Assembly: GCF_002105755.1 (NCBI RefSeq)
Contig: NZ_CP020821.1
Span: forward strand, 496,001-560,000
Source: Mycobacterium colombiense CECT 3035
GTDB taxonomy: Bacteria; Actinomycetota; Actinomycetes; Mycobacteriales; Mycobacteriaceae
Length of the DNA stretch: 64,000 bases
Reading direction: 5' to 3'
Positions 10,393 to 43,385 of the stretch are shown here, piece after piece. Within the stretch, counting starts at the first letter, position 1, and each line of letters starts with the position of its first letter. Under the pieces are notes generated by a model. That model did not search any database. It had not been told where the DNA came from and was given only the letters and a program-made list of their open reading frames with translations. The position numbers were made by a program, and so were the translations under genes.

Positions 10393-11632
10393 CAGCGCAC
10401 GGCGGGAACGGGCCGAGCCCGAGGCGGTGGGTGCGCCGTCGCGGCGCAGGTCGAGCCGCGTCTCCCGGAAACGGGCCGAGCGGGGCCGTCGGCGGCGGTT
10501 CGCCGGCAAGATCGCGCTCGCGGTGCTCGTCGTGGTGGTGGTCGCCGGTGTCTTCCTCGGCGGCAGGCTGTGGCACACGCTGTTCGGGCCCGGCGACGAC
10601 TACAGCGGTGGCGGCAAGCGGGACTTGGTGATCCAGGTGCAGGCCGGCGACTCGACCACCAACATCGGCGAGACGCTGCAAAAAGAGCAGGTCATCAAGA
10701 CGGTGCGGGCGTTCGTCAACGCCGCGCACGGCAACAGCGCCATCAACTCGATCCAGCCCGGCTTCTACCGGATGCGCACCGAGATCCCGGCGGCCAACGC
10801 CGTCGCGCGGCTGACCGACCCGAAGAGCCGGGTGGGCCGGCTGGTCATCCCGGAGGGCCGCCAGCTCGACGACACCACCGACATGAAGACCAACGTGGTG
10901 ACGCCGGGGATCCTGACCCTGATCTCGCGCGCCACCTGCGTGGATCTCGACGGTGACACGCACTGCGTCCGGGCGGAGGATCTGCGCGCGGCGGCGACCA
11001 ACAGCTCTCCGCTGGCGCTGGCGGTGCCGCCATGGGCCACCGAACCCGTCGGTGAGCTCGGCAAGGACCACCGCCGGATCGAGGGCCTGATCGCGCCCGG
11101 CACCTTCAACATCGATCCGTCCGCGTCGCCGGAGAGCATCCTGGCCACCCTGATCGGCGCCGGCGGTGAGGAGTACGTGAAGTCCGGGCTGGTGGACACC
11201 GCACAGGCCATGGGCCTGTCGCCCTACGACATCCTGGTGGTGGCGTCGCTGGTGCAGCAGGAATCCAACTCCCAGGACTTCGCCAAGGTCGCGCAGGTCA
11301 TCTACAACCGCCTGCACGCCCACCACACGCTCGAGTTCGACTCGACGGTCAACTACCCGCTGGACCGCCGCGAGGTGGCCACCAGCGACGCCGACCGGGC
11401 CCAGAAGACGCCGTGGAACACCTACGTGTCGCAGGGCCTGCCGGCCACCGCGATCTGTTCGCCCGGCACAGACGCGCTCAACGCCGCCGAGCACCCGCAG
11501 CCCGGCGACTGGCTGTACTTCGTCACCATCGACGCCCAGGGCACGACGCTGTTCACCCGCGACTACCAACAACATCTGGCCAACATCGAGCTGGCTAAGC
11601 GCAACGGTGTCCTCGACAGCACGCCCCGTTAG
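10385..11632 (+). CDS. mltG: Endolytic murein transglycosylase MltG
   Basis: A 415-aa YceG-family lytic transglycosylase that cleaves nascent glycan strands at the membrane. It has a basic cytoplasmic N-terminus ([19 protein letters not shown]), one membrane helix at about residues 40-60 ([17 protein letters not shown]), a LysM-like stretch and the YceG domain. The catalytic Glu is in [11 protein letters not shown], followed by [18 protein letters not shown] and [13 protein letters not shown]. It overlaps ruvX at its start and aroE by 26 nt at its end, implying coupled translation. Equivalent to Rv2553c. Confidence 0.95.
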
Positions 11633-12446
11633 CCCGGGCCCCCGCAAGGCGGCCGTGCTCGGCAAGCCGATCGCCCACTCGAAGTCCCCGCAGCTGCATC
11701 TGGCCGCCTACCGCGCGCTGGGCCTGGCCGACTGGACGTACGAGCGCATCGAATGCGACGCCGAGCAGCTGCCCGGCGTGGTCGGCGGCATGGGCCCCGA
11801 ATGGGTCGGGGTGTCGGTGACCATGCCCGGCAAGTTCGCCGCTTTGCGATTCGCCGACGAGCGCACCGACCGGGCGCAGCGGGTGGGATCGGCCAACACG
11901 CTGGTGCGCACCCCGGCGGGGTGGCGCGCCGACAACACCGACATCGACGGGGTCGCCGGGGCGCTCGCGTCAACAAAGCGGACCTCGGGATGGGCGCTCG
12001 TCTGTGGATCGGGCGGCACCGCGCCGGCCGCCGTCGCCGGCCTGGCCCAGTTGGGCGTCGCCGGCATCACCGTGGTGGCCCGCAACCCCGATAAGGCGGC
12101 CCGCCTGCTGGGCCTGGGCGACGAGCTGGGCGTGCCGACCCGCTTCTGCGACCTGGACGGGCACGGGCTGGCCGATGAGGTGGCGGGCGCGGAGGTGCTG
12201 GTCAGCACCATTCCGGCGGACATCGCCGAACGCTACGCCGGCACCTTCGCACGCATCGGTGTGCTGCTGGACGCCGTCTACGACCCGTGGCCCACGCCGC
12301 TGGCCGCCGCGGTCGGCGCCGCCGGCGGGCGGGTGGTCAGCGGCCTGCAGATGCTGCTGCACCAGGCTTTCGCGCAGGTGGAACAGTTCACCGGGCGGCC
12401 CGCCCCGCGCGAGGCGATGACTTGCGCGCTGACCGCGCCGCAATAG
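11607..12446 (+). CDS. aroE: Shikimate dehydrogenase
   Basis: A 279-aa NADPH-dependent shikimate dehydrogenase (3-dehydroshikimate to shikimate). Shikimate-site residues are in GKPIAHSKSPQLH and the catalytic Lys in VSVTMPGKF; the paired Asp is in DNTDIDG. The dinucleotide fold begins CGSGGTAPA. The GTG start at 11607 lies inside mltG; a start after the mltG stop would delete the substrate motif. It is separated from aroC-aroK-aroB-aroQ by the monooxygenase/ABC island. Confidence 0.96.
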   Translation: MSSTARPVSPGPRKAAVLGKPIAHSKSPQLHLAAYRALGLADWTYERIECDAEQLPGVVGGMGPEWVGVSVTMPGKFAALRFADERTDRAQRVGSANTLVRTPAGWRADNTDIDGVAGALASTKRTSGWALVCGSGGTAPAAVAGLAQLGVAGITVVARNPDKAARLLGLGDELGVPTRFCDLDGHGLADEVAGAEVLVSTIPADIAERYAGTFARIGVLLDAVYDPWPTPLAAAVGAAGGRVVSGLQMLLHQAFAQVEQFTGRPAPREAMTCALTAPQ

Positions 12447-12456
12447 CCTGCCGCGC
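12444..12456 (+). promoter_or_regulatory. -10 element at the aroE stop for the leaderless prepilin peptidase gene
   Basis: TAGCCT (12444-12449) begins with the aroE stop codon TAG and is followed by 7 nt before the ATG at 12457. No Shine-Dalgarno is present. Confidence 0.5.
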
Positions 12457-12885
12457 ATGCGGATTGCGTGCGCGTGCCTGGTGCTGGCCTGGCTGGCGGC
12501 GTTGAGTTGCTACGACATCCGCGAACGCCGCCTGCCCAACGCGCTGACGCTGACCGGGGCCGCGGCGATCCTGGCGGCCGCGACGCTGGCCGGGCGCGGG
12601 CCCGCGGCGCTGGGCGGAACCGCGGCGCTGACCGCGATCTACCTGGTGGTGCACTGCGCCGCGCCGGACGGAATGGGCGCCGGCGACGTCAAGCTGGCCC
12701 TGGGCCTGGGCGCGTTGACCGGTTGCTTCGGGGTCGGCGCGTGGTTCCTGGCGGCGCTGGGCGCGCCGCTGCTGACCGCGGCGGTCGGTTTGGTCCGGAC
12801 TGCCCGGCGCGCCGGTGCCGCGGTGCCGCACGGCCCGTCGATGTGTCTGGCCAGCGCGGCGGCGGTGGGGCTGACGCTGTACTGA
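12457..12885 (+). CDS. Short A24-type prepilin peptidase
   Basis: A 142-aa membrane protein with only the peptidase half of type IV prepilin peptidases. Both catalytic aspartates are visible: one in SCYDIRERRLPN and one in the GxGD motif GMGAGDVKLA. The N-terminal methylase domain with its Cys-zinc site is absent, as in archaeal or Tad-type enzymes and in Rv2551c. At least four hydrophobic segments (for example LVLAWLAALS, TAALTAIYLVVH). No pilin or Tad genes are in the window, so its substrate lies elsewhere. The stop is 5 bp from the convergent monooxygenase gene. Confidence 0.88.
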   Translation: MRIACACLVLAWLAALSCYDIRERRLPNALTLTGAAAILAAATLAGRGPAALGGTAALTAIYLVVHCAAPDGMGAGDVKLALGLGALTGCFGVGAWFLAALGAPLLTAAVGLVRTARRAGAAVPHGPSMCLASAAAVGLTLY

Positions 12886-12890
12886 TGCCC

Positions 12891-13976
12891 TCAGTGCGGG
12901 ACGGCGGTGGGGCGCAGCAGCGGCAGCAGCTGGTCGCCGAGCCTGACCGTCTCCGACTGGTACGGGGTGTCCGACAGCACGAAATGGGTGACCCCGAGAT
13001 CGGCGTATTTGCGCAGCGCGGCGGCGACTTCGGCGGCCGAGCCGACCAGCCAGGTGGTCCCGGCGCCCTCCCCGCCGTACTTGCTCGGCGTCGTGTACAG
13101 GCAGGAATCGACCACCTCGCTGCGCCCGGCGAGGTCGTTGAGCCGCCGCTGGCCCTCGGACCCGGCCGGGTCGTGCAGCAGCAGCATGGTCGGCGTGCCG
13201 GCCAGCTTGGCGACCTTCGCCTCGGCGTCGCGCCAGGCCTGCTCGGAGGTGTCGCGCACCAGCGTCGTCACCCGCAGGCCGAACTCGAGCGGCGCGTGCT
13301 CGCGACCGAGCTTGTGGGACAACGACTTCAGCCGGTCGATGCGCTCGGCGATGCCGTCCAGCGACTCGCCCCAGAACAGCTGGACGTCGGCGTCGGTCGC
13401 GGCGACCTGCTCGGCGGCCGCCGATGCGCCGCCGAAGTAGAGCTTCGGGTAGCGGCCGTCTTCCGCACCCAGCGGGCGCGGCTGCAGCGTCGAGTGTTCG
13501 ACGCCGAAGAACTCGCCCCGGAAGGTGACGTCGTCCTCGCTCCACAGGCGGCGAACCAGCCGGATGAATTCGCGGGTGCGGTCGTAGCGGCGGCCCTTGT
13601 CGACTTCGGTGTCGCCGTACGCGGCCAGATCATCGGCGCCGCTGACGACGTTGATCAGCAGCCGGCCGCCGTTGAGCCGATCCAGGGTCGCCGCCGCACT
13701 GGCGAAATGCGCCGGCTGCCAATACCCGGGCCGCACCGCCACCAGCGGGGCGAAGTTGGTGGTGCGCGCGGCGATCGCGGTCGCGACGGTGAAGGTGTCC
13801 GGCCGTCCCCAGCCGGTGCCGATCAGCGCGCCTTCCCAGCCGTGTTGCTCGGCGCGCAGCGCCAGATCGACCGAATAGTCCAGGCTTCCCCAGCCGTCGA
13901 CGGTGTCGTCGCCGCGATGGCCGGGCTCGACGGTATTCGGTATGTACCAGAGAAATTGACCCTTATCGGCGGGCAC
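12891..13976 (-). CDS. FMNH2-dependent alkanesulfonate monooxygenase-like protein (SsuD family)
   Basis: A 361-aa bacterial luciferase-like (LLM) monooxygenase closest in pattern to SsuD, which releases sulfite from alkanesulfonates. Seen: TIM-barrel start FLWYIPNT, WGRPDTFTVATAIAA, the flavin/phosphate region GGRLLINVVSGAD, and GDTEVDKGRRYDRTREFI followed by PKLYFGGASAAAEQVAA. Start GTG 13976 has AGAAGG 6 nt upstream. It is the last gene of a three-gene minus-strand LLM operon, 21 bp after the preceding gene. No flavin reductase gene is present, so FMNH2 must come from elsewhere. Substrate is inferred from family and neighbours only. Confidence 0.85.
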   Translation of the reverse strand: MPADKGQFLWYIPNTVEPGHRGDDTVDGWGSLDYSVDLALRAEQHGWEGALIGTGWGRPDTFTVATAIAARTTNFAPLVAVRPGYWQPAHFASAAATLDRLNGGRLLINVVSGADDLAAYGDTEVDKGRRYDRTREFIRLVRRLWSEDDVTFRGEFFGVEHSTLQPRPLGAEDGRYPKLYFGGASAAAEQVAATDADVQLFWGESLDGIAERIDRLKSLSHKLGREHAPLEFGLRVTTLVRDTSEQAWRDAEAKVAKLAGTPTMLLLHDPAGSEGQRRLNDLAGRSEVVDSCLYTTPSKYGGEGAGTTWLVGSAAEVAAALRKYADLGVTHFVLSDTPYQSETVRLGDQLLPLLRPTAVPH

Positions 13977-13997
13977 GGTGCACCTTCTCTCTTGGGT

Positions 13998-15281
13998 TCA
14001 CGCGGCGGCGACGTACCGGTCGCCGGTGAGCCGTTCGCGCAGCGTCTTGTCCGTGTACGAGGTGCGGAAGAGCCCGCGGGACCGCAGAATCGGCACCACC
14101 TCGTCGACGAACACCTCCAGACCGTCGGGGAAGACGTCGGGCATCAGGTTGAAGCCGTCGGCGGCACCGGTTCGGAACCACCGCTCGATGGTGTCGGCCA
14201 CGTCGACCGGCGACCCCACGATCACCCGGTGGCCCGAGCCGCTGAACTCGCGGAGGGTCTCCCGCAGCGTCAGCCCGCGGCCGGTCACCAGACGCACGAC
14301 CGACTCCCGAAAACCCAGCGAGCCAACGAATTTCGACGGGTCCGGCACGGCCCCCAGCAGCTGCGGGGGGATGGGCTCGTCCAGCGGAAGTCCCGACAGA
14401 TCCGCCCCGAGGGTCTGTGACAACCGCTCAACGTCGTGGCCGGCGGGCAGGAGCTCGTTCTGCTCGTCGTAGCGCCGCTGCGCTTCGGCGCGGCTGCTGC
14501 CGATGGTGGTGATCAGTCCTGGCAGGATGCGTACCGCGTCACGGCCGCGACCGTGCGCCACGGCGGCGTCCTTGACGTGGCGGTAGTGCTCGATACCGGC
14601 GTCCAGGTCGAGTTCCGCGCTGAACACCGCATCCGCGACCCGGCCGGCCAGGTCCCGGCCCTGCGGCGACCCGCCGGCCTGCACCAGCAGCGGATGCCGT
14701 TGCGGGGAGGGGCCCTGCGGCAACGACCCGGTGACGCCGAAGAATTCGCCGCGGTGGTCGATGCCGCCCCCTCCGGCCGCGGCGTCGCGCCACAAGGCCA
14801 GCACCACGTCGACGAACTCCGCGGCGCGCCGGTATCGGGTCTGCCGGTCGGGCAGGTCGGCGAGACCGAAGTTGCCGCCGGCCGCCTCGGAATACGTGGT
14901 GACGACGTTCCAGCCGAGGCGCCCACTGGAGAGGTGATCGAGGCTGAGCAACCGGTGCGCCAGCTCCACCGGGTCGTTGAATGTCGTGGACAACGTTCCG
15001 ATGAGCCCGAGATGCTCCGTCTCTGCCGCGACAGCGGCCAGGATCACGCTCGGCTCCAGGGCCTGTGACGGGCGCAGAGCCGGGTGATCGCGCAAGGCGG
15101 GCCCGTCGGCCAGGAACAGCGCGTCCAGGGTTCCGCGTTCGGCGATCTCGGCCATTCGCACGTAGTACCCGGGATCGGTGAACGCGGCGGGCGCCTCGGT
15201 CGACCGGCGCCACGATGCGGTGTGAATGCCCAGGTTCAACACGTTGACGTTGAGCGTCAGCCGGCGCTCGTGGCTGCTCAC
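13998..15281 (-). CDS. NtaA/SnaA/DszA-type FMN-dependent monooxygenase
   Basis: A 427-aa luciferase-like monooxygenase of the nitrilotriacetate/DszA branch, enzymes that use FMNH2 and O2 on organosulfur or organonitrogen compounds. Seen: LNVNVLNLGIHTASWR, DALFLADGPAL, the branch-typical LSSGRLGWNVVTTYSEAAGGNFG, and LLVQAGGSPQGRDLA. Its GTG start overlaps the stop of the upstream LLM gene (GTGA), so translation is coupled. Together with the SsuD-like gene it suggests stepwise oxidation of one substrate class, possibly a sulfone or sulfonate; that is inference. Confidence 0.85.
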   Translation of the reverse strand: MSSHERRLTLNVNVLNLGIHTASWRRSTEAPAAFTDPGYYVRMAEIAERGTLDALFLADGPALRDHPALRPSQALEPSVILAAVAAETEHLGLIGTLSTTFNDPVELAHRLLSLDHLSSGRLGWNVVTTYSEAAGGNFGLADLPDRQTRYRRAAEFVDVVLALWRDAAAGGGGIDHRGEFFGVTGSLPQGPSPQRHPLLVQAGGSPQGRDLAGRVADAVFSAELDLDAGIEHYRHVKDAAVAHGRGRDAVRILPGLITTIGSSRAEAQRRYDEQNELLPAGHDVERLSQTLGADLSGLPLDEPIPPQLLGAVPDPSKFVGSLGFRESVVRLVTGRGLTLRETLREFSGSGHRVIVGSPVDVADTIERWFRTGAADGFNLMPDVFPDGLEVFVDEVVPILRSRGLFRTSYTDKTLRERLTGDRYVAAA

Positions 15282-16204
15282 AGGCGGGCTCCCGCATTCG
15301 GGGCGCCGTCAAAGGCGCGGCGGTGTGCCGACAGGTCGGGGACGGCGGGCGCGGGTAGCCGAAGCTGCTGTCGCAGTGTGCCGGCGCGGGGTGTGGCCAC
15401 AACACCCCGTCGTTGCGCCGCGGCGACCACGTCGTCGAGCACCGCTGTCAGGGAGTCCGGTGGCACCCGCAACAGCACGCCGCGGACGCCCGGCGTGGCC
15501 GCCACCCGATCCAGCGCCGCGTGATCGACCGACCGCACGCGGATGACGGCGCCGTCCGGGACAGGCTCGCCGTCCTCGACGACGACCACGTCCGGGTGCG
15601 CAGTGGGGGCACCGGCCTGCTGCCACACCGGCGGGTCGCCGTGCGGCGAACCGGGCACGTTCAACGGCCCGGCGATGCGATAGGTGCCTCGCACGTCGGC
15701 CCGCCGAATCTGTGCGGCGTCGGCGAAAACGCCGGCCTCGCTGTCACCCACCAGCGATGCATGGGGCCATGTGCGCCACAGCGTTCGCACCGCCTCGATC
15801 GCCGCCGCGGTGTGCGCCGGGCCGAGGGCGGCGCCGGTCCAGGTGTCGGCAACCGCGTTGAGCCCGATGCGCCGGTCTGCATCGAGGGCGAACCAGCCGA
15901 CGCGCCCTGGCGCGGCGTGCTCGACCGACAGCAACCGGCGGGCGAGGTTGTAGGGGTGGTCGCGATGCGCGGACGCGGCCACGACCAGGCCCAGCCTGGT
16001 GCTGTGCCGGGCCGCGACGGTGGCGATCAGCGACGCGTCCAGGGCGGAGGCACCGAGCGGTTCGTTGCGGTCGGCGCCGATCACCCAGTAGTGCACACCG
16101 GCGGATTCCAGGCGATGCGCCAGCCCGGCGACGCCCCGCACGGGCGGCTGGTCGCCGATCCCGTCGCCGGCGACCTCGATCCCGACGGACAGCGTGACAG
16201 GCAT
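15278..16204 (-). CDS. Divergent luciferase-like (LLM) flavoprotein, first gene of the LLM operon
   Basis: A 308-aa LLM-class protein shorter than its two neighbours. Barrel features are recognisable: LAHRLESAGVHYWVIGADR, ASLIATVAARHSTRLGLVV, LARRLLSVEHAAPGRVGWF and PPVWQQAGAPTAH. The region after about residue 200 is weakly conserved and may not bind flavin in the usual way; it could be a partner subunit or a degenerate paralogue. The start ATG 16204 lies 8 nt after TAACGT on the minus strand, making it the probable leaderless head of the operon. Confidence 0.75.
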   Translation of the reverse strand: MPVTLSVGIEVAGDGIGDQPPVRGVAGLAHRLESAGVHYWVIGADRNEPLGASALDASLIATVAARHSTRLGLVVAASAHRDHPYNLARRLLSVEHAAPGRVGWFALDADRRIGLNAVADTWTGAALGPAHTAAAIEAVRTLWRTWPHASLVGDSEAGVFADAAQIRRADVRGTYRIAGPLNVPGSPHGDPPVWQQAGAPTAHPDVVVVEDGEPVPDGAVIRVRSVDHAALDRVAATPGVRGVLLRVPPDSLTAVLDDVVAAAQRRGVVATPRAGTLRQQLRLPAPAVPDLSAHRRAFDGAPNAGARL

Positions 16205-16218
16205 GAGTCACGACGTTA
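16205..16218 (-). promoter_or_regulatory. -10 element of the LLM operon
   Basis: On the minus strand TAACGT (16218-16213) ends 8 nt before the ATG at 16204, as expected for a near-leaderless transcript. Confidence 0.45.
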
Positions 16219-16282
16219 CGTGCGGGCACGCGCGACGCAACCGGCGCGTGCAACGCCGACTCGAAGATGGCTGACCACACGC

Positions 16283-16345
16283 CATTCCACTTAAAAATTG
16301 TGACGCTATAAACCGTTGTCGGCATAGTGGGCGGCGCATAGGTTT
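16283..16345. promoter_or_regulatory. AT-rich segment in the divergent LLM / DszC-like intergenic region
   Basis: The 199-bp gap between the divergent transcripts holds a conspicuous A/T-rich patch (CTTAAAAATTGTGACG and CTATAAACCG) in otherwise GC-rich DNA. It is a reasonable site for the rightward promoter and a control protein, but no clear operator palindrome was found. Confidence 0.35.
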
Positions 16346-16403
16346 TGGGGCTGGCTGCCGTGGATCGCCGCGGCACGGACCCATCCGGAAGGCTTTGTCA
16401 CAC

Positions 16404-17615
16404 ATGTCCGTTGGAGTTCACCGCCACGACACACCCGCAGGCCCGCAGGTGATCGGCGACGCGCTCGCCGAGATCGCCGCGGACTATCGCCTGCGGTTGG
16501 CCGACGGGGGAACCGAACCGCCGCTGCGTGGGCTCAAACTCATTCGCGACCATCGGCTGGGCGCGGTGCGATTGGCCCGCGAACTCGGCGGTGCCGGCTT
16601 CACGGTGCCGGAGTTCTTCGACTTTCTCGTCACGCTGGCCGCCGCCGACCCCGACCTGGCGCACATTTTGCGGATCCATTACGCGCTGGTCGAGGAGCTC
16701 CAGGTCAAGCCCGGACGCGTCGGCAGCGACCGCTGGATCGCCGTGGTGGCCGAGGGCGGATTGATCGGGGGCGCCAACGCCGAACAGAGCCAGAAGTCCG
16801 TGGGCGGCACCAACCGCGACACGCGGTTGGTGGCCACCGAGGACGGGTTGCGGTTGCGCGGCAGGAAGTTCTACAGCACCGGCGCGCAGTTCTCCGACTA
16901 CCTGCGGATCACCGCGCAGGACGATGACGGCGCCCCGACCGCCGTTGTGATTCCGGTGGACCGGGCCGGCGTCGAGCACCTCGACGATTGGGACGGCATC
17001 GGCCAGCGTCAAACCGGAAGCGGGACAACGGTCTTCAATGATGTCTCGGTCGCGGCCGATGAAGTCTTCCCGCTGGGCGCCACCATCGGGGTGAACCGCG
17101 CCCGGGGTGCGCTGGTGCAGCTGTACCTGCATGCGGTGGCCGCCGGCATCCTGCGCAGCCTGACGGCGGATGCTGCGGCGCTGGTGCGTGGGCGGCGCCG
17201 CACCTACACCTTTGCCAGCACCGACACGCCGACCGCCGACCCGCAGTTGCTGCAGATCGTCGGCGAGATCGACGCGGTCGCCTACTCCGCGCAAGCGCTG
17301 GTGCGCAGCGCGGCGGCCGACCTCGCACCCGCGCTGGAGGCCGCGCGCGGCACCGGGATCGATCCCGAATTGGAAGCCGCGGCGTCGATCGCCGCCGCGC
17401 GGGTCAAGGTTGCGATCCAGGAGCCCGCGCTGCGGGCGGCGTCCCGCGTTTTCGACGCCGGGGGTGCGTCGGCCGTTCAGGCCTCGGCGCTGCTGGACCG
17501 GCACTGGCGAAACCTGCGAACGCTGTTCTCGCACAACCCGACGATCTACAAGGCGCGGGTGCTGGGCGACATCGCCGTCAACGGCACGGCGCTGCCCGAC
17601 ACCAGTTTCTTCTGA
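16404..17615 (+). CDS. Acyl-CoA dehydrogenase-fold monooxygenase (DszC/SfnB family)
   Basis: A 403-aa flavoprotein of the acyl-CoA dehydrogenase fold, in the DszC/SfnB group that oxidises dibenzothiophene or dimethylsulfone rather than acyl-CoA. Seen: LARELGGAGFTVPEFF, GGANAEQSQKSVGGTNRDT, LRGRKFYSTGAQFSDY, WDGIGQRQTGSGTTVF and a C-terminal helical domain with LLDRHWRNLRTLFSHNP, the segment that replaces the catalytic Glu region of true dehydrogenases. ATG 16404 is preferred over TTG 16395 because GGAAGG lies 11 nt upstream. First gene of the rightward transcript with the ABC importer. Confidence 0.85.
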   Translation: MSVGVHRHDTPAGPQVIGDALAEIAADYRLRLADGGTEPPLRGLKLIRDHRLGAVRLARELGGAGFTVPEFFDFLVTLAAADPDLAHILRIHYALVEELQVKPGRVGSDRWIAVVAEGGLIGGANAEQSQKSVGGTNRDTRLVATEDGLRLRGRKFYSTGAQFSDYLRITAQDDDGAPTAVVIPVDRAGVEHLDDWDGIGQRQTGSGTTVFNDVSVAADEVFPLGATIGVNRARGALVQLYLHAVAAGILRSLTADAAALVRGRRRTYTFASTDTPTADPQLLQIVGEIDAVAYSAQALVRSAAADLAPALEAARGTGIDPELEAAASIAAARVKVAIQEPALRAASRVFDAGGASAVQASALLDRHWRNLRTLFSHNPTIYKARVLGDIAVNGTALPDTSFF

Positions 17616-17625
17616 CGCGGCCCGG

Positions 17626-19218
17626 ATGTCGAAGGCAGCGACGCGCGCGGCGATGCTGGGCGTGGTCTTCTCCCTCGTGGTGGCGGGGTGTTCGAGCCAC
17701 CGGCACGCTCCCAGCACCGGGCCCACCGGGGCGCCGGTGCGCGGTGGCACGTTGACCTACTCCGATGTCCAGTTCGTCACCGACACCATGGCGGCCAACT
17801 ACAGCGCGAACAACCTGATGTTCCAGGTGCTCGACCGGGTGGTGTACGTCGACCCGAAGACCGACACGGTGCACGGGTGGCTGGCAGAAGCCTTCTCGCG
17901 CAACCAGAACGCCACCCGGTACACCTTCACGATCCGCGACCGGGTGACATTCAGTGACCGGACACCGCTGACCGCCGAGGTGGTGAAGGCGAACTTCGAC
18001 CAGCTCGGCAAGGGCGACCCGGGCAAGAAGATGCCGGCCTTCGCCGATTTCGTGGGCTACGACCACAGCGAGGTCAGCGGAAACGTCGTGACCGTGTTCC
18101 TCAACCGGCCCAATACCAACTTCTACAAGGTTTTGTCCTACAGCCGCGCGGGGATCCGCGCGCCGTCGACGCTGGCCCTCGATTACCAGCGCCAGGCCAA
18201 GATCGAAAATGTCGTCGGCTCAGGGCCGTTCGTTTACCAATCGCAGATTCCCGACCAACAGGTGGTGCTCACGAAGCGCCCGGATTACGCGTGGGCGCCG
18301 TCGTCGTGGCCGAACCGGGGGGCCGCCTATCTGGACAAGGTCGTCTTCCGGGTGATCGCCGAACCGGGCCTGCGTGCGGGTGCGGTCCAGTCGCATCAGG
18401 TGGACGTGGCCCGCGGGATCCAGCCGACCGACGAACCCGCGCTCAAACAGGGTGGACTGCAGGTGATCTCGGTTGCAGCACCCGCCGAGACCGCGAACCT
18501 GGTCGGGTTCAGGATCAACGACCAGGTCGTCAACGACGTGCGGGTGCGCCGGGCGCTGCAGTTGGGCATCGACCGCCAAGCGGTGGTGGATACGGTGCTG
18601 TCGGACAGTTATCGGGCAAGTGATTCCGTTCTCGGCCACGACGACCCACTGTTCGCCAACGTGAGCGCCGACATCGGATACGAACCGGAGCGGGCGGCCA
18701 GCCTGCTCGATGCGGCCGGATGGCGACCCGGCAGCGACGGTGTGCGCGAAAAAAACGGTAAGAAGCTGAATTTGACGCTGGCGGCGTCCAACCAGAGTGT
18801 GGTGTTCCGCCCGGCGTTCGAGTTCATCGAATCGCAGTGGCGAGAACTGGGCGTCGTCCTGCAGAACCGGGCGGGTGATACGACGTTCTTCAACGCCTCC
18901 AGCAGCCAACAGTCGACTCCGCTGTTCGGCACCCGAATTCAATACAACATCGGCCTGGGCCTGCTGTTCGGCCGCCCGAAGAGCAACCTGACATTCGCCA
19001 AGAACGACGATCTGATCGCGCTATCGGAGGAAGAGCTCAAGGAGACCGATCCGGCCCGGCTCAAAGACATCGTCGCTCGCGAACAGCGCAAGATCATCGA
19101 CGACCAGCTGGCGTTGGTGCTCTGGGACGAGGTGCAGGTTCACGCCGCCGCGCCGAATGTCCACGTGGAGTTCACCCGCTACACCGAGCCGTTGCTGCAG
19201 AGCGCGTGGAAGGCCTGA
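17626..19218 (+). CDS. ABC importer substrate-binding lipoprotein (SBP_bac_5 / Dpp-Opp type)
   Basis: A 530-aa extracellular solute-binding protein, family 5. A signal peptide with lipobox LVVAGC at residues about 18-23 predicts a membrane-anchored lipoprotein. Family features: GGTLTYSDVQFV, a YTFTIRDRVTFSDRTPLTAEVVKANFDQL block, VVGSGPFVYQ, and VRVRRALQLGIDRQAVVD. It is 10 bp after the DszC-like gene and 4 bp before the first permease. Family 5 proteins bind peptides but also nickel and diverse organic molecules, so the ligand is open; the neighbouring monooxygenases favour an organosulfur compound. Confidence 0.9.
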   Translation: MSKAATRAAMLGVVFSLVVAGCSSHRHAPSTGPTGAPVRGGTLTYSDVQFVTDTMAANYSANNLMFQVLDRVVYVDPKTDTVHGWLAEAFSRNQNATRYTFTIRDRVTFSDRTPLTAEVVKANFDQLGKGDPGKKMPAFADFVGYDHSEVSGNVVTVFLNRPNTNFYKVLSYSRAGIRAPSTLALDYQRQAKIENVVGSGPFVYQSQIPDQQVVLTKRPDYAWAPSSWPNRGAAYLDKVVFRVIAEPGLRAGAVQSHQVDVARGIQPTDEPALKQGGLQVISVAAPAETANLVGFRINDQVVNDVRVRRALQLGIDRQAVVDTVLSDSYRASDSVLGHDDPLFANVSADIGYEPERAASLLDAAGWRPGSDGVREKNGKKLNLTLAASNQSVVFRPAFEFIESQWRELGVVLQNRAGDTTFFNASSSQQSTPLFGTRIQYNIGLGLLFGRPKSNLTFAKNDDLIALSEEELKETDPARLKDIVAREQRKIIDDQLALVLWDEVQVHAAAPNVHVEFTRYTEPLLQSAWKA

Positions 19219-36448: not shown

Positions 36449-36673
36449 GCACGCCATCTTGCGCCGTCGGGAGCCCATCCGGGAATCGGCGGGTGCCGCG
36501 GCGTGGCGGGTTCTGCTCACCGGGATCACAAAGCCGGCGCGTTCTCGCAGGTGGCGCAATAGCGCGGCGGCCGGCGGTTTTAGCTGGTCGGGCCTCGGGG
36601 CCGCCCGGCGCAATGCGCGCGGCCGCCGCCCCGGGGCCCCGCCGGCGACCCGAAAAACGGCCCTGAGCTGCGT
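36449..36673. other. Intergenic stretch between COG4705-like and gntR genes
   Basis: About 225 bp of GC-rich sequence in the divergent gap. Apart from the gntR promoter at its right edge I see no gene, RNA or clear operator palindrome. Confidence 0.5.
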
Positions 36674-36686
36674 TAGCGTGACTCCC
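36674..36686 (+). promoter_or_regulatory. -10 element of the gntR-ferredoxin-ABC-flavoprotein operon
   Basis: TAGCGT (36674-36679) is followed by 7 nt and then GTG 36687, the leaderless pattern. It is the only obvious promoter for the six coupled genes downstream. Confidence 0.5.
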
Positions 36687-37439
36687 GTGGCGCAACCAGT
36701 ACCCATCGCAGGACCCCGGGCCGACCGCGCCCGCCGGGTCGCCGACGTGCTGCGCCAGCAGATCCACTCCGACGCCTACCCGGATGGCCTGCCCGCCGAG
36801 CTGGAGTTGGCCGCCGAATTCTCGGTATCCCGCAACACCATTCGCGAGGCGCTGACCGTCCTCAAGCACGAGGGGCTGATCGACCGCGGCCCCAAGGTCG
36901 GCACGCACGTCGCGCAGCGCAAGTACGACCACGGGCTCGACGCGCTGCTGGGTCTGAAGGAGACCTTCAAGGACCTCGGCGAGGTCCGCAACGAGGTGCG
37001 CGCCGCGATGGCGGTCACCGCGCCGCCGTCGGTGGCCCGCCGGTTGCGGCTGCAACCGGGCGAGCAGGCGGTGTTCATCGAGCGGCTGCGGTACCTGGGG
37101 GACCTGCCGCTCAGCCTCGACCTGACCTACCTCGCCCCGGACATCGGCCGCGAGGTGCTGACCCACCCGCTGGAGAGCAACGACCTGTTCGCGCTCATCG
37201 AGGAGGTGAGCGGGCAACGGCTGGGGTCGGCGGCGCTGGCGCTGGAGGCCATTCCCGCCGACGCGCACTCGGCCGCCACGCTGCAGGTGCCCGACGGCGC
37301 GGCCCTGCTGATGCTGGAGCGGCTCACCAGCCTCGCCGACGGCACGCCCGTCGACCTGGAATACATCCGGATGCGGGGCGACCGAATCACCATGCGGGGC
37401 AATCTCGTTAGGGCCGAGCCGATGAGGAGCAACCCATGA
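36687..37439 (+). CDS. GntR/HutC-family transcriptional regulator
   Basis: A 250-aa regulator: N-terminal winged helix with LPAELELAAEFSVSRNTIREAL and the wing DRGPKVGTHVA, and a C-terminal UTRA ligand-binding domain with FIERLRYLGDLPLSLDLTYL and LEYIRMRGDRITM. It is the first gene of its operon, so it probably autoregulates and senses the imported compound or a product. GTG 36687 follows TAGCGT by 7 nt. It overlaps the ferredoxin gene by 4 nt. Confidence 0.9.
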   Translation: MAQPVPIAGPRADRARRVADVLRQQIHSDAYPDGLPAELELAAEFSVSRNTIREALTVLKHEGLIDRGPKVGTHVAQRKYDHGLDALLGLKETFKDLGEVRNEVRAAMAVTAPPSVARRLRLQPGEQAVFIERLRYLGDLPLSLDLTYLAPDIGREVLTHPLESNDLFALIEEVSGQRLGSAALALEAIPADAHSAATLQVPDGAALLMLERLTSLADGTPVDLEYIRMRGDRITMRGNLVRAEPMRSNP

Positions 37440-37666
37440 CGCTGATCAACAACAACCGCGCCGACGTGCCCGTCACGATCGACGAGTCGCTGTGCATCGA
37501 CGGTTGCACGTTGTGCGTGGAGGTCTGTCCGCTCGACGCGCTGGCCATCGACCCCGACACCGGCAAGGCCTTCATGCATGTCGACGAGTGTTGGTACTGC
37601 GGCCCCTGCGCGGCCCGCTGTCCGACCGGCGCCGTCACGGTCAACATGCCCTATCTCCTTCGCTGA
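37436..37666 (+). CDS. 2x[4Fe-4S] ferredoxin (AprB-like small subunit)
   Basis: A 76-aa ferredoxin with two cysteine sets: C20-x3-C24-x2-C27-x3-C31-P and C52-x2-C55-x2-C58-x3-C62-P. The first has CX3C in place of the usual CX2C. In this operon it probably passes electrons to or from the AprA/fumarate-reductase-like flavoprotein, as AprB does for AprA in APS reductase. ATGA overlap with gntR; 25 bp before the lipoprotein gene. Confidence 0.9.
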   Translation: MTLINNNRADVPVTIDESLCIDGCTLCVEVCPLDALAIDPDTGKAFMHVDECWYCGPCAARCPTGAVTVNMPYLLR

Positions 37667-37691
37667 AAAGCCTCTGACCCCAGGACCTTTC

Positions 37692-39080
37692 ATGAAACGA
37701 CGCGCCGTCCGGCTGGCGTCGGTGGTGATCGCGATCGCCGCGCTCACCACCGGCTGCTCACTGGAATCCCTGTCGCAGTCCTCCGGTGTGGTCAACGTGG
37801 TGGTGGGATATCAGTCCAAGACCATCAACACCGTCACCGCCGGCACGCTGCTGCGCGCGCAGGGCTACCTGGAGCGCCGGCTGGCCGACATCACCAACCG
37901 CACCGGCACCAAATACGCGGTGCGGTGGCAGGATTACGACACCGGCGCGCCGATCACCGCGCAGATGCTCGCCGAGAAGATCGACATCGGCTCGATGGGC
38001 GACTATCCGATGCTGATCAACGGTTCCAAGACGCAGGCCAACCCGCTGGCGAAAACCGAGATCGTCTCCATCACCGGCTACAACCCCAAGGGCGCGCTGA
38101 ACATGGTGGTAGTGGCGCCCGGTTCGTCGGCGACCACGCTGCGCGACCTGGCCGGCTCGAAGGTGTCGGCGAGTGTGGGGTCGGCCGGTCACGGCACGTT
38201 GATGCGGGCGCTGGACCGGGCCGGGATCAACGGTGTGGAAGTGCTCAACCAGCAACCGCAGGTGGGCGCCTCCGCGTTGGAATCTGGTCAGGTGCAGGGC
38301 CTTTCGCAGTTCGTCGCCTGGCCGGGGCTGCTGGTGTACCAGGGCAAGGCCAAACTGCTCTATGACGGGGCCGAGCTGAACCTGCCCACCCTGCACGGGG
38401 TGGTGGTGCGGCGCTCGTACGCGGCGTCGCATCCGGAGGTGCTGGGCGCCTTCCTGCAGGCCCAACTGGACGCCACCGATTTCCTGAATCGCAAGCCGCT
38501 GGAGGCCGCCCGGATCGTCGCCCAGGGCAGCGGACTGCCGCAGGAAGTCGTGTACCTCTACAACGGCCCCGGTGGCACGTCGTTCGACACGACGCTCAAA
38601 CCGTCCCTGGTCGAGGCGTTGAAAAACGATGTGCCGTACCTGAAGTCGATCGGCGACTTCGCCGACCTGGACGTGTCCGGCTTCGTCCAGGACGGGCCGC
38701 TGCGCAGCGTGTTCGGCGCCCGCGGCCTGAACTACGACGCGGCGCGCGCGGCCACCGCCAACCCGTCCGCGCTGCGCGGGGATCCCGCGCTGGCCAGCGA
38801 ATTATGGCTGGACGGTTCGGATTCCACGCAAACGGTCGCCAACCCCACCGGGCTGCTCCGGGCGGTTCGCGAGGCGACCGCCCGCGGCGCCAAGATCCGG
38901 GCCGCCTATGTTCCGGACGCGGAGCTGGGCACCCGGTGGTTCGCCGACAAGGCGGTCTGGGTGCGGGACGGCCAGAACTACCTGCCGTTCGGGACACCGG
39001 CCGGCGCGCATCGCTATCTCGCCGCGCACCCGGGCGGCGCCGTCGTCAATTACCAGCAGGCCCTTGGAGGTTCGGTATGA
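37692..39080 (+). CDS. ABC substrate-binding lipoprotein (NitT/TauT type) with extra C-terminal domain
   Basis: A 462-aa lipoprotein: signal peptide with lipobox LTTGC, then a NitT/TauT/SsuA-like binding domain (QMLAEKIDIGSMGDYPMLING, LRDLAGSKVSASVGSAGHGTL, HPEVLGAFLQAQLDATDFL) to about residue 340. Residues about 370-462 are an addition not found in TauA/SsuA: GLLRAVREATARGAKIRAAYV, then FADKAVWVRDG, LPFGTPAGAHRYLAAHPGG and AVVNY. That order resembles the back half of NosL-type domains, but the NosL methionines are not evident. ATG 37692 is the start; it overlaps the permease gene by ATGA. Confidence 0.87.
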   Translation: MKRRAVRLASVVIAIAALTTGCSLESLSQSSGVVNVVVGYQSKTINTVTAGTLLRAQGYLERRLADITNRTGTKYAVRWQDYDTGAPITAQMLAEKIDIGSMGDYPMLINGSKTQANPLAKTEIVSITGYNPKGALNMVVVAPGSSATTLRDLAGSKVSASVGSAGHGTLMRALDRAGINGVEVLNQQPQVGASALESGQVQGLSQFVAWPGLLVYQGKAKLLYDGAELNLPTLHGVVVRRSYAASHPEVLGAFLQAQLDATDFLNRKPLEAARIVAQGSGLPQEVVYLYNGPGGTSFDTTLKPSLVEALKNDVPYLKSIGDFADLDVSGFVQDGPLRSVFGARGLNYDAARAATANPSALRGDPALASELWLDGSDSTQTVANPTGLLRAVREATARGAKIRAAYVPDAELGTRWFADKAVWVRDGQNYLPFGTPAGAHRYLAAHPGGAVVNYQQALGGSV

Positions 39081-39949
39081 CCGCTTATCTCACCGGCGAC
39101 CCGGCAGCCCCGGTGTCGGCGCAAGTCGTCGACGCGGCCCCGGCGGCGGCCACCCCGCGCCGCGCGGGCTCGCCATGGCAGTGGCGGCTGCTGCGGCTCG
39201 CCTCGGTCGCCGCCGCGATCGGGCTGTGGCAGGCGCTCACCGCCGACAAGGTGCGGCTGCTGCTGCGCTTCGACACGCTGCCCACCGTCACCGAGATCGT
39301 GCACGCGCTGGGGCGCCGGCTGGGCACCTCCGAGTACTGGCTCGACCTGGCGCAGTCGCTGATCCGCATCCTCACCGGCTTCGGACTGGCCGCCGTGGTC
39401 GGGGTCGCGACGGGGGTGCTGCTGGGACGTTCCCGCTTGTTCGCCAACACCTTCGGCCCGTTGACGGAGTTGGTCAGACCCGTTCCGGCCATCGCAATCG
39501 TGCCGGTGGCGATCCTGCTGTTCCCGACCGACGAGGCGGGCATCGTGTTCATCACCTTCCTCGCCGCGTACTTCCCGATCCTGGTCAGCACCCGGCACGC
39601 GGTCCGGGCGCTACCCACGCTGTGGGAGGACTCGGTGCGCACCCTGGGCGGCGGCCGGTGGGACGTGCTCAGGCAGGTGGTGTTGCCGGGCATCCTGCCC
39701 GGAGTGTTCGGCGGCCTGTCGGTCGGTATGGGCGTGGCGTGGATCTGCGTGATCTCCGCCGAGATGATCTCTGGTCGACTCGGCATCGGCTATCGCACCT
39801 GGCAGGACTACACCGTGCTGGCCTACCCCCAGGTGTTCGTCGGCATCATCACCATCGGCGTGCTGGGTTTCGCGACGGCGGCGGCCGTCGAGGTCGTGGG
39901 TCGCCGGGTCACCGGCTGGCTGCCGCGCGCGGAGGAGGAGCAGCGATGA
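39077..39949 (+). CDS. ABC transporter permease (TauC/SsuC type)
   Basis: A 290-aa permease with about six helices and the EAA loop TLGGGRWDVLRQVVLPGILPG. It starts at ATG 39077 overlapping the lipoprotein stop, with GGAGG 6 nt upstream inside that gene. The N-terminal 35 residues are hydrophilic and Ala/Pro-rich. It forms the channel for the ligand captured by the lipoprotein. Confidence 0.93.
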   Translation: MTAYLTGDPAAPVSAQVVDAAPAAATPRRAGSPWQWRLLRLASVAAAIGLWQALTADKVRLLLRFDTLPTVTEIVHALGRRLGTSEYWLDLAQSLIRILTGFGLAAVVGVATGVLLGRSRLFANTFGPLTELVRPVPAIAIVPVAILLFPTDEAGIVFITFLAAYFPILVSTRHAVRALPTLWEDSVRTLGGGRWDVLRQVVLPGILPGVFGGLSVGMGVAWICVISAEMISGRLGIGYRTWQDYTVLAYPQVFVGIITIGVLGFATAAAVEVVGRRVTGWLPRAEEEQR

Positions 39950-40689
39950 CTGTCGGAGTGAGCCTGGAGCTGGATCGAGTTCGCTTGTCCTACACCGGGG
40001 AACCGGTGATCGACGGGCTGAGCCTGACCGTGCGCCCGGGGGAGATCCTGGTGCTCACCGGCCCCTCGGGCTGCGGCAAGTCGACGGTGCTGCGGGCCCT
40101 GGCCGGGCTGCTGCGGCCCGACGAGGGCCGGATCGTCGCCGACGGCGACGAGGTGACCGCCACCTCGGGCGACCGGGGCATGGTGTTCCAGGACAATGCG
40201 CTGCTGCCCTGGCGCACCGTGCGCTCCAACATCGAGCTGGCCCTGCGGCTGCGCGGCGTCGCCCGGGCCGGCCGCCGCGCCGAGGCCGACCGCTGGATCG
40301 CCGAGCTCGGTCTCACCGGCTTCGGCGACTATCTGCCCAAGAGCCTGTCCGGCGGCATGCGGCAGCGCGTCCAGCTGGCCCGCGGGCTGGCCGGGGCGCC
40401 GCGCGCGGTGATGATGGACGAGCCGTTCGGCGCGCTGGACACTCAGACGCGCACGGCCATGCAGCGGCTGCTGATCGACACCTGGCGCGCCCATCCGACG
40501 ACGATCGTCTTCGTCACGCACGACGTCGACGAGGCGCTGCTGCTGGGTGATCGCATCGCCGTGCTGGGCAGGGCCGGTCAGCCGCTGCGCACCCTGATCG
40601 ACGTGCCCGAGCCGCGCGCCGACCGGCAGCGCGCCGCCCTGCGCGCCGAAGTCATTGCGGCACTGAATCACTCGGCGGTGGCGGCATGA
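39946..40689 (+). CDS. ABC transporter ATPase (TauB/SsuB type)
   Basis: A 247-aa nitrate/taurine-type ATPase: Walker A GPSGCGKSTVLRAL, Q-loop region MVFQDNALLPWRTV, signature [15 protein letters not shown], Walker B VMMDEPFGALD, H-loop FVTHDVDEAL. GGAGGAGGAG precedes ATG 39946; ATGA overlaps on both sides. It powers the neighbouring permease. Confidence 0.95.
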   Translation: MTVGVSLELDRVRLSYTGEPVIDGLSLTVRPGEILVLTGPSGCGKSTVLRALAGLLRPDEGRIVADGDEVTATSGDRGMVFQDNALLPWRTVRSNIELALRLRGVARAGRRAEADRWIAELGLTGFGDYLPKSLSGGMRQRVQLARGLAGAPRAVMMDEPFGALDTQTRTAMQRLLIDTWRAHPTTIVFVTHDVDEALLLGDRIAVLGRAGQPLRTLIDVPEPRADRQRAALRAEVIAALNHSAVAA

Positions 40690-43385
40690 TGCAGATTCCC
40701 GACCCGGCGACCCCGGTCCGGCTCGACTGTGACGTCCTGGTCATCGGCGGCGGCACCGCGGGCACCATGGCCGCGCTGTCGGCCGCGGAGAGCGGCGCGC
40801 AGGTGCTGCTGCTGGAGAAGGCCCACGTGCGCCACTCCGGAGCCCTGGCGATGGGCATGGACGGCGTCAACAACGCCGTGATCCCGGGCAAGGCCGAACC
40901 CGAGGACTACGTCGCCGAGATCACCCGCGCCAACGACGGAATCGTCAACCAGCGCACCGTGTATCAGACCGCCACCCGGGGCTTCGCGATGGTGCAGCGG
41001 CTGGAGCGCTACGGCGTGAAGTTCGAGAAGAACGAGCATGGCGAATACGCGGTGCGCCGGGTGCACCGCTCGGGCTCCTACGTGCTGCCCATGCCCGAGG
41101 GCAAGGACGTCAAGAAGGCGCTGTATCGCGTGCTGCGGCAACGGTCGATGCGCGAGAAGATCCAGATCGAGAACCGGCTGATGCCGGTCCGGGTGCTGAC
41201 GCACGAGGGCCGGGCCGTGGGCGCCGCGGCGCTGAACACCCGCACCGGTGAATTCGTCACGGTCGGCGCCAAGGCGGTCATTTTGGCCACCGGCGCGTGC
41301 GGCCGGCTCGGCCTGCCCGCATCGGGTTACCTGTACGGCACCTACGAGAACCCCACCAACGCCGGCGACGGCTACTCGATGGCCTACCACGCGGGCGCGG
41401 AGCTGTCCGGCATCGAGTGCTTCCAGGTCAATCCGCTGATCAAGGATTACAACGGCCCGGCGTGCGCGTACGTCGCCAATCCCTTTGGCGGATATCAGGT
41501 CAACGCGCACGGCGAGCGGTTCGTCGACTCCGACTACTGGTCGGGGCAGATGATGGCCGAGGTCAAATCCGAGATCGATTCCGCGCGCGGACCCATCTAC
41601 CTCAAGGTGTCGCACCTGCCCGACGAGACGCTGACCGCGCTGGAAAACATCCTGCACACCACCGAGCGGCCCACCCGGGGCACCTTCCACGCCAACCGCG
41701 GCCACGATTACCGCACTCACGACATCGAGATGCACATCTCCGAAATCGGCTTGTGTAGCGGGCATTCCGCGTCAGGCGTGTGGGTCGACGAGCACGCGCG
41801 CACCACGGTGCCCGGGCTGTATGCGGCGGGTGACATGGCCTGCGTCCCGCACAACTACATGATCGGGGCGTTCGTGTTCGGCGACCTGGCCGGCACGCAC
41901 GCCGCCTCGACCCTGGCCGACGTCGCAGCGCCGCAACAACTCCCGGCCGACCAGGTGCGTGAGGCGCACGAGCTGATCTACCGGCCGCTGCGGCATCCGG
42001 ACGGCCCGCCGCAGCCCCAGGTCGAATACAAGCTGCGCCGCTTCGTCAACGACTACGTCGCGCCGCCCAAGACCGGGGCCAAGCTGTCGCTGGCCATCCG
42101 CACCTTCGAGCGGATGAGCGCCGAGATCGCCGAAATGGGCGCCCGCAATCCGCACGAGCTGATGCGCGCGGTGGAGGTGTCGTTCATCCGCGACTGCGCC
42201 GAGATGGCCGCCCGCTCGTCGCACACCCGCACCGAATCCCGTTGGGGCCTCTACCACGATCGCGCCGACCTGCCCGGCCGCGACGACAGCCAGTGGGGCT
42301 ATCACCTCAACCTGCGCAAGGACGCCGGTGGCCAGATGGTCTTCCTCAAGCGGCCGGTGGCACCGTACTTCGTGCCGGTCCCGGAACTCGACGGCCTGCC
42401 GCCCACCGACCAGACGGTGTACCCGGTGGAGCAGCCGCCGCTCATCGGCGGCCAGGCCCCGGCCACCGCGGTGTCCCGAATCGGTTCGGCCACAACCACC
42501 TTCGAGCCGCCCTCACCGCGCATCGCCGAGGTCCTGGCGCTCGAGGAGCCCACGATGGACGACCTCGATCGCTACCTCGCCGACGCGGATCCCGGCGTGC
42601 GCCGCACCGCGGTGTCGACGCTGACCGAGCACATCCCCGCCGGGTACGCGCCGGCCCTGGTGGCCGCGCTGAAGGACGACGACGCCACGGTCCGCCGCAC
42701 CGGCGCCGACGGCATCCGCGAGCTGGTCGAGGTGTTGCCGCAGCCGGAAAGCGTGCGCGAACACCTGGATTCGGTCGATCGGGTGGTGCGCGCCGCCTCG
42801 CTGTACGTGCTGGCCGCGCGGCGGGCCGGTGACGCCGCGCAGTACCGTCGGGCCCTCGACGACGTCGATCATCGGGTGCGCATCGAGGCGGTGCGCGCGC
42901 TGGTGTCCGTCGACGATGTGGCGGGTGTCGTCGCCGCCGCCGGTGACGAGAACCGCGAGGTTCGCATCGCGGCGGCCGCCGGGCTGGCGACGCTGCGGGC
43001 GGCGGCGGCCCCGGCTGGTGGGGCGGTGCGCCGGCTGGTCGCCGACTCCGATCCGCTGGTGCGCGCCGCCGCGCTGGCCGCGCTGGGCCAATTGGGTTGC
43101 GGTCAAGACGATTACGCCGCCATCAAGCAGGCGCTGCGGGCGCCGGCCTGGCAGGTGCGCGAAGGCGCGGCCCGCGCGCTGGCCGGCGCGCCGGTCGATT
43201 TCGCGGTTCCGCATCTGTCCGAGGCGCTGAGTGACGCCCATCTGGACGTGCGCAAGGCGGCCGTGCTCAGCCTGACCCGGTGGGCCGGGGAGCCCGCCGC
43301 CCGGGACGCGCTGGGGCTTGCGCTCAAGGACGGCGACGCCGACGTGCGCGCCTACGCGCGCCGTGCGCTCGAGCGGGATGGCTAG
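40686..43385 (+). CDS. AprA/fumarate-reductase-like flavoprotein fused to HEAT repeats
   Basis: An 899-aa protein. Residues 1 to about 600 are a FAD oxidoreductase of the succinate dehydrogenase/fumarate reductase/APS reductase alpha superfamily: CDVLVIGGGTAGTMAALSAAE (dinucleotide site), KAVILATGACGR, GVWVDEHARTTVPGLYAAGDM, HNYMIGAFVFGDLAG and a helical C-terminal part. From about residue 620 there are roughly eight HEAT-like repeats (for example LADADPGVRRTAVSTL, LKDDDATVRRTGADGI, LVADSDPLVRAAALAAL, LKDGDADVRAYARRAL). The fused solenoid is unusual for this superfamily. With the operon ferredoxin it may form a two-subunit redox enzyme acting on the imported substrate. Confidence 0.9.
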   Translation: MMQIPDPATPVRLDCDVLVIGGGTAGTMAALSAAESGAQVLLLEKAHVRHSGALAMGMDGVNNAVIPGKAEPEDYVAEITRANDGIVNQRTVYQTATRGFAMVQRLERYGVKFEKNEHGEYAVRRVHRSGSYVLPMPEGKDVKKALYRVLRQRSMREKIQIENRLMPVRVLTHEGRAVGAAALNTRTGEFVTVGAKAVILATGACGRLGLPASGYLYGTYENPTNAGDGYSMAYHAGAELSGIECFQVNPLIKDYNGPACAYVANPFGGYQVNAHGERFVDSDYWSGQMMAEVKSEIDSARGPIYLKVSHLPDETLTALENILHTTERPTRGTFHANRGHDYRTHDIEMHISEIGLCSGHSASGVWVDEHARTTVPGLYAAGDMACVPHNYMIGAFVFGDLAGTHAASTLADVAAPQQLPADQVREAHELIYRPLRHPDGPPQPQVEYKLRRFVNDYVAPPKTGAKLSLAIRTFERMSAEIAEMGARNPHELMRAVEVSFIRDCAEMAARSSHTRTESRWGLYHDRADLPGRDDSQWGYHLNLRKDAGGQMVFLKRPVAPYFVPVPELDGLPPTDQTVYPVEQPPLIGGQAPATAVSRIGSATTTFEPPSPRIAEVLALEEPTMDDLDRYLADADPGVRRTAVSTLTEHIPAGYAPALVAALKDDDATVRRTGADGIRELVEVLPQPESVREHLDSVDRVVRAASLYVLAARRAGDAAQYRRALDDVDHRVRIEAVRALVSVDDVAGVVAAAGDENREVRIAAAAGLATLRAAAAPAGGAVRRLVADSDPLVRAAALAALGQLGCGQDDYAAIKQALRAPAWQVREGAARALAGAPVDFAVPHLSEALSDAHLDVRKAAVLSLTRWAGEPAARDALGLALKDGDADVRAYARRALERDG

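Follow-up and report, generated by a model that had tools for sequence, protein, structure and literature searches.

The asfRABC genes of Pseudomonas putida S-313 encode a reductase, a ferredoxin, a binding protein with its ABC transporter, and a LysR-type regulator (PMC4267179). An asfA mutant is reported to lose the use of aromatic sulfonates and to keep that of aliphatic ones (PMC4267179), and the asf genes are described as serving electron transfer, with ssu required as well (PMC4267179, PMC10441942). A six-gene operon of the same kind is found in Mycobacterium colombiense CECT 3035, whose genome is a single contig of 5.58 Mb. It occupies positions 36687..43385 of a 64,000-nucleotide stretch (NZ_CP020821.1, positions 496,001 to 560,000 of the forward strand; hereafter the window) and encodes a GntR regulator, a ferredoxin, a substrate-binding lipoprotein (SBP), a permease, an ATPase, and a flavoprotein fused to HEAT repeats. 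The sequence-only reading could name no described pathway with such a set; asfRABC is one, though the flavoprotein here belongs to another branch. The operon is probably a second flavoprotein–ferredoxin–sulfonate-importer system, set apart by its unusual SBP and its HEAT partner, that is widespread and carries a wrong name in the databases. We tentatively consider it, with a confidence just short of even, a sulfur-scavenging import-and-redox module. Our best guess at its task is the uptake of organosulfonates and their redox desulfonation for sulfur supply.

Architecture and conservation of the operon

All six genes are located on the plus strand. The GntR/UTRA transcriptional regulator (36687..37439, 250 amino acids (aa), GTG start; UTRA PF07702 at 105.5 bits, GntR PF00392 at 55.2 bits) is followed by the 2[4Fe-4S] ferredoxin (37436..37666, 76 aa), whose eight cysteines are arranged as CX3CX2CX3CP and then CX2CX2CX3CP ahead of a conserved C-terminal tail, P[YF]L[LI][RK]. 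The SBP (37692..39080, 462 aa, ATG at 37692) has an SsuA/NMT1-like body and a TTGC lipobox recognized by eye, and it precedes a permease of the NtrB/TauC/SsuC type (39077..39949, 290 aa) and an ATPase of the TauB/NtrCD type (39946..40689, 247 aa). The last gene encodes the flavoprotein–HEAT fusion (40686..43385, 899 aa; FAD_binding_2 at 134 bits, HEAT_2 at 85.5 bits). Four junctions are 4-base ATGA overlaps and the ferredoxin and SBP genes are 25 bases apart, which bears out the coupled set that had been read from the sequence. The arrangement is more than chance, because the gene order recurs across Actinomycetota.

Relatives were followed in several samples. Profile searches covered 61 genomes of the order, of which 37, counting the present one, belong to the genus. 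The cut-off of the fusion family NF010374 is passed by 14, all of them within the genus (14/37 versus 0/24). Phylum-wide, 8 of 296 genomes encode a flavoprotein over the cut-off of NF006131, and all eight lie in open frames that could hold the fusion, with 927 codons or more. The best 80 of at least 589 relatives from a genome scan are all actinobacterial and were combined with the plasmid loci L039 and L050. In the resulting 82 loci, the regulator (74), the ferredoxin (75), the SBP (77), and the permease (78) are encoded within 6 kb of the flavoprotein. The misses are mostly contig ends; in L101 and L139, the regulator and ferredoxin genes are located further upstream behind extra genes, and L099 begins at the ferredoxin. 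A flavoprotein–HEAT gene that usually lacks importer and ferredoxin, the pattern named beforehand as speaking against a functional set, was not found, and the genes nearly always occur together. The copies in L139 (Mycolicibacterium houstonense, HEAT part) and G031 look interrupted in these assemblies.

Outside Actinomycetota, 21 plasmid loci from cyanobacteria and proteobacteria (17 annotated, 4 scanned) were taken from about 48 good matches. The flavoprotein is not fused there, and all 21 loci encode it together with the ferredoxin and a HEAT protein. The ferredoxin is thus a constant companion, in keeping with its earlier description as a natural partner. A whole importer is present in 17 of the 21, the others being L051, L055, L056, and L158, and the SBP of L157 is short. 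DUF971-type genes occur in 13 of these loci and Mrp/NBP35 genes in four, both of which we take to be connected with iron–sulfur assembly. The module architecture is therefore conserved in three bacterial phyla. Since ferredoxin and HEAT protein are found in 21/21 loci read outside Actinomycetota, HEAT counts as a regular partner, encoded by its own gene there and fused to the flavoprotein in Actinomycetota.

The HEAT domain of the fusion (42516..43385, plus strand) comprises 19 predicted helices in residues 611–896 and matches all 17 annotated separate HEAT proteins (313–333 aa) at 32–69 bits. A W..R repeat lies within the last 130 residues of 74 of the 75 full-length fused frames (taken from 75 of the 82 actinobacterial loci), mostly 76–86 residues from the end, and 77–91 residues from the end in 17/17 separate proteins.

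The flavoprotein and its relation to APS reductases

The fusion is an already curated family rather than a lone oddity. NF010374 (PRK13800) matches residues 2–896 at 1783.8 bits (curated cut-off 1196) and NF006131 (PRK08275) residues 12–567 at 877.4 bits (cut-off 587). Both NCBIfam models are named only fumarate reductase/succinate dehydrogenase flavoprotein, a generic name that gives no function. The sequence-only description of an 899-aa flavoprotein with a HEAT C-terminus is correct. The closest named relatives are mycobacterial (e.g., M. colombiense 96%, M. intracellulare 93%), and the family is widespread: one Pseudomonas protein cluster alone holds 1,320 sequences.

The FAD-binding domain (40686..42440, plus strand) resembles the alpha subunits of adenosine 5′-phosphosulfate (APS) and 3′-phosphoadenosine 5′-phosphosulfate (PAPS) reductases. 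In the tree, the family groups with AprA and PAPS reductase (PAPSR) alpha subunits (joint clade support 98/94), and MtPAPSR (8a8o) is its best match among solved structures, in one comparison barely ahead of fumarate reductases. With MtPAPSR and AprBA it shares the flavoprotein fold, the FAD core, and an eight-cysteine 2[4Fe-4S] partner; the 76-aa ferredoxin has the cysteine number of the AprBA beta subunit. In contrast to these enzymes, the operon encodes an importer and an added HEAT part and holds no sulfate-activating genes, and the flavoprotein carries a family-specific segment, ECxQxNPLxKDYNG. The arginine in FRFKD of AprA and LRVKD of PAPSR (AprA Arg265, position 237 of MtPAPSR) is replaced by Leu251, which is invariant in 48 aligned members. 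The segment HNYMIGAF likewise has no counterpart of the arginine of succinate dehydrogenase (SDH). Both arginines are taken here to have active-site roles. The curated models of the reductases score below their cut-offs (aprA 135.8 versus 641.75 bits, NF005331 267 versus 557, sdhA/frdA TIGR01812 154.1 versus 567.3 bits). Because an invariant leucine stands where AprA has Arg265 in the alignment, the flavoprotein is unlikely to be either an APS reductase or a fumarate reductase. The earlier label "AprA-like" thus fits the grouping with reductase alpha subunits and is limited by Leu251.

Comparison with the Asf system

As in asfRABC (PMC4267179), a FAD reductase is combined with a dedicated 2[4Fe-4S] ferredoxin, an ABC transporter, and a binding protein of the sulfonate type. 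The differences are a GntR/UTRA regulator where asfRABC has the LysR regulator AsfR, a ferredoxin gene near the start of the operon rather than after asfA, and a HEAT protein, which the available text on asfRABC does not mention. A LysR-type gene adjoins the flavoprotein in L040, L058, and L152 and is further off in L042 and L059.

AsfA and AsfB are annotated as Rmet_4334/5 in Cupriavidus metallidurans CH34 (PMC2864759). Their place was interpolated between TauD genes (six tags in PMC2864759, six positions) and a hopene cyclase, near 923 kb, and a flavoprotein/ferredoxin pair at 928–930 kb of the CH34 megaplasmid adjoins it. The window flavoprotein is 26% identical to P0121, which of the CH34 proteins lies closest to where Rmet_4334 should be. 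This reference was placed by inference in an unannotated record and is not the S-313 AsfA sequence. Overall, it is 26–28% identical to the CH34 protein annotated AsfA and belongs to a separate clade. Membership in the Asf system, expected at first, was not supported: the megaplasmid encodes no close relative of the window flavoprotein (best matches 31%, 28%, and 28%), and orthology with AsfA was not found. No entry named AsfA appears among the 120 matches listed per protein search. The Asf-type clade has a support of 100/100 and is separate from the clade of the window family with AprA/PAPSR (98/94). A distant common descent of the window family and the Asf type is possible, as the approximately unbiased (AU) test does not reject a joint clade (p 0.084).

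Asf-type genes were found in 5 of the 61 relatives searched and not in the source genome. Four of these genomes are of the same genus (L166 in G021, L167 in G027, L168 in G035, L169 in G028) and share an adjacent permease–ATPase–AsfA–AsfB order, with an SBP-like open reading frame ahead of it in L167; a search for HEAT proteins in the four loci gave no match. Three of them (G021, G028, and G035) also carry the operon studied, so the two are parallel systems. By analogy, the operon would work like Asf, but these comparisons do not place it within that system. A marker PCR for asfA uses a primer named asfBtoA. The actinobacterial operon would hardly yield its product, because the ferredoxin gene is located 3 kb upstream of the flavoprotein gene.

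The importer and its sulfur context

The SBP body has SsuA as its best solved relative (2x26, 58.6 bits), followed by TauA and a nitrate-transport protein, which supports the sulfonate-type importer proposed earlier. The transporter family and the SBP body are those of SsuABC/TauABC. Compared with these, the SBPs are 447–503 aa long with an additional C-terminal part past residue ~300, and the window SBP stays below the SsuA and taurine SBP cut-offs (SsuA_fam 110.2 versus 163.5; taurine model 65.4 versus 304.25). Of eight full-length SBPs, six match Pfam NosL in this extra part (E ≤0.11, one at the curated cut-off), and the window and L039 SBPs do not. In 19 plasmid records, the SBP C-terminus is matched in 15 (E ≤0.13, seven over the cut-off), and a 16th has a separate NosL gene. 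The C-terminal part of the window SBP aligns in register with the NosL-like domain of its homologs. Judged from these alignments, the family appears to be an SsuA-like importer protein with a C-terminal NosL-like domain, a newly recognized feature; neither of the two papers listed in a literature search joins NosL with a sulfonate importer. Copper binding, the role that we assume for NosL, is doubtful in this part, as the invariant columns listed for the SBP alignment include no cysteine.

TauE/SafE proteins are sulfite exporters. A total of 12 TauE/SafE genes score over the cut-off in 11.39 Mb of plasmid sequence, which covers 19 of the 21 records. Six of them lie within ~8 kb of the flavoprotein, where 0.35 are expected (binomial 5e-7; 5/11 and 9e-6 with one Pseudanabaena dropped); the test came after TauE genes had already been noticed in several of the loci. 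The enrichment beside the trio of flavoprotein, ferredoxin, and HEAT protein agrees with the sulfur-type context suggested from the sequence. Single loci additionally hold YeiH-type genes, luciferase-like (LLM) monooxygenases, TauD, sulfate/sulfonate transport genes, or a 3-mercaptopropionate dioxygenase.

Promoter and candidate operator

A -10-like hexamer, TAGCGT (36674..36679, plus strand), ends 7 bases before the GTG at 36687. The pattern TAGC[GT]T recurs near the aligned start (28 bases upstream to 12 downstream) in 21/21 upstream regions with a GntR more than 80% identical, the window included. Placement and conservation fit a probable leaderless promoter, as the sequence-only reading had proposed. 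Further upstream, two GGCGCAAT boxes (36553..36560 and 36607..36614, both on the plus strand) are paired at a 54-bp spacing. Across 74 homologous upstream regions (window included), which are related by descent so that the counts are not independent, GGCG[CT]AAT occurs at least once in 62 and as a pair at 53 or 54 bp in 36; 200 rounds of shuffling produced no pair of this kind. The spacing is 64 in Tsukamurella (L133) and 63 in Gordonia (L130), one helical turn more. The location of both boxes on one helix face, upstream of -70, points to a regulator that is tetrameric or loops the DNA. A looser form of the paired pattern occurs once genome-wide, at the operon promoter; an operator regulon was rejected, as the genome has no second copy of the paired boxes. 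A structured RNA in the leader was dismissed as well, the one match being below its gathering score and taken as chance.

Proposed function and alternatives

In the proposed mechanism, the lipoprotein would capture an organosulfonate-type anion that is then imported by the ABC transporter. The dedicated ferredoxin, docked as in APS reductase, would feed electrons to the FAD domain, whose own active site would transform the substrate and release sulfite, most likely by redox cleavage of the sulfur-containing head group. The HEAT domain, whose association is observed, may be a scaffold for assembly or docking. Substrate or product is probably the signal for the GntR/UTRA protein, and the paired boxes may be its site of action. 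A bolder form of this scheme is unlikely: the trio would be an oxygen-independent flavin desulfonase of aerobic bacteria in three phyla, with FAD N5 attacking the sulfur atom in a C-sulfonate or related head group while the ferredoxin supplies electrons and HEAT holds the complex. It would stand alongside the monooxygenase routes and come with the SsuA–NosL fusion.

Several observations weigh against the sulfur-scavenging module and are given here together with the explanations that they favor. The substrate-side capping region (residues 226–362) is modeled mostly at a predicted local distance difference test (pLDDT) score below 50 and is unreliable in both structure models (mean pLDDT 73.8 and 75.3). 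In the PDB, the ferredoxin is matched best by polyferredoxins (63.9 bits); it matches AprB or the PAPSR beta subunit at only 31–38 bits, and the aprB model scores 32.1 bits against a cut-off of 135.65. No TauE match above 60 bits was found in the 82 actinobacterial loci. The flavoprotein and ferredoxin might instead not act on the substrate themselves and serve as an Asf-like electron donor for a separate flavin monooxygenase of the SsuD type, which would cleave the C–S bond of an aromatic or other sulfonate. This explanation is on balance doubtful. It has its precedent in the electron-transfer role described for the analogous asf genes (PMC4267179, PMC10441942), and it fits the excess of SsuD-like genes in operon carriers of the genus (13/14 versus 12/23 non-carriers, Fisher 0.013, in a test that ignores phylogeny and incomplete genomes; matches at E 1e-60, none over the curated cut-off). 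An SsuD-like gene directly downstream and convergent in Nonomuraea (L050), a DmoA-type gene beside the module in L041, LLM genes in L155 and L159, and ferredoxin-NADP reductase with FdxA in L154 point the same way. However, the carrier G020, a 100% complete genome, has no SsuD-like match at E 1e-60, the annotated AsfA is no close relative of the flavoprotein, and the capping region of the FAD domain is still highly conserved. Flanking LLM-type matches above 60 bits, some truncated, occur in only 8/82 actinobacterial loci, which rules out a linked LLM monooxygenase as a constant partner there. The best SsuD-like monooxygenase of the source genome (G000:C1:4769738-4770787) scores 437.7 bits against a cut-off of 518.2, with no match of the transporter queries used within 16 kb around it.

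A non-sulfur substrate, such as a nitrogen compound, a vitamin precursor, or another anion that is imported and then reduced or oxidized by the flavoprotein, is quite unlikely. The SBP fold is shared with carriers of nitrate, taurine, or thiamine precursors, and the SBP body matches NMT1/THI5 as well as a nitrate-type SBP. Single loci lie beside thiCOSG (L153) or an ammonium transporter with PII genes (L042), and Crp/Fnr genes are found in 9 of the 21 unfused loci, some on symbiosis plasmids. Yet SsuA remains the best solved relative of the SBP, TauE is enriched on the plasmids, and no nitrogen or vitamin gene is common to the loci read. That the flavoprotein is a true APS/PAPS or fumarate reductase under another name is very improbable: fold, FAD, 2[4Fe-4S] partner, and the grouping with AprA/PAPSR agree, but the model scores are far under the curated cut-offs, both presumed active-site arginines lack a counterpart, and none of the six genes encodes an ATP sulfurylase or a membrane subunit.

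Neighboring genes

About 20 kb upstream of the operon, the window holds an organosulfur-type cluster (12894-19215). It encodes an NtaA/DmoA monooxygenase that scores over its cut-off (413.6 bits), a KPN_01854-type binding protein, and two proteins that stay under theirs, an SsuD/SfnG-like LLM monooxygenase (229.7 bits to NF001939) and an SfnB/DszC-like oxidoreductase (242.4 bits). In L051 (Nostoc edaphicum, 9695-12876), five protein genes separate flavoprotein and ferredoxin: two HAD hydrolases, a methyltransferase, a GNAT, and a VOC protein. The operon of L039 (Tsukamurella plasmid) is followed at 13275-17561 by nucleotidyltransferase, ThiF, Mov34/MPN, and SAVED genes, presumably a CBASS-like defense set, and the anti-phage genes qatC and qatD of Qat lie near the module in L154 (Methylobacterium radiotolerans plasmid, 754-2801).

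Implications

Among the papers listed in searches of the open PMC literature, none on the flavoprotein–HEAT set was found. The known aerobic sulfonate enzymes include FMNH2-dependent monooxygenases and 2-oxoglutarate dioxygenases. If the proposed function is true, a widespread family named fumarate reductase/succinate dehydrogenase is misnamed and serves organosulfur acquisition, and aerobic bacteria could gain a further kind of sulfonate enzyme. HEAT repeats as the scaffold of a redox complex would thereby become a testable role.

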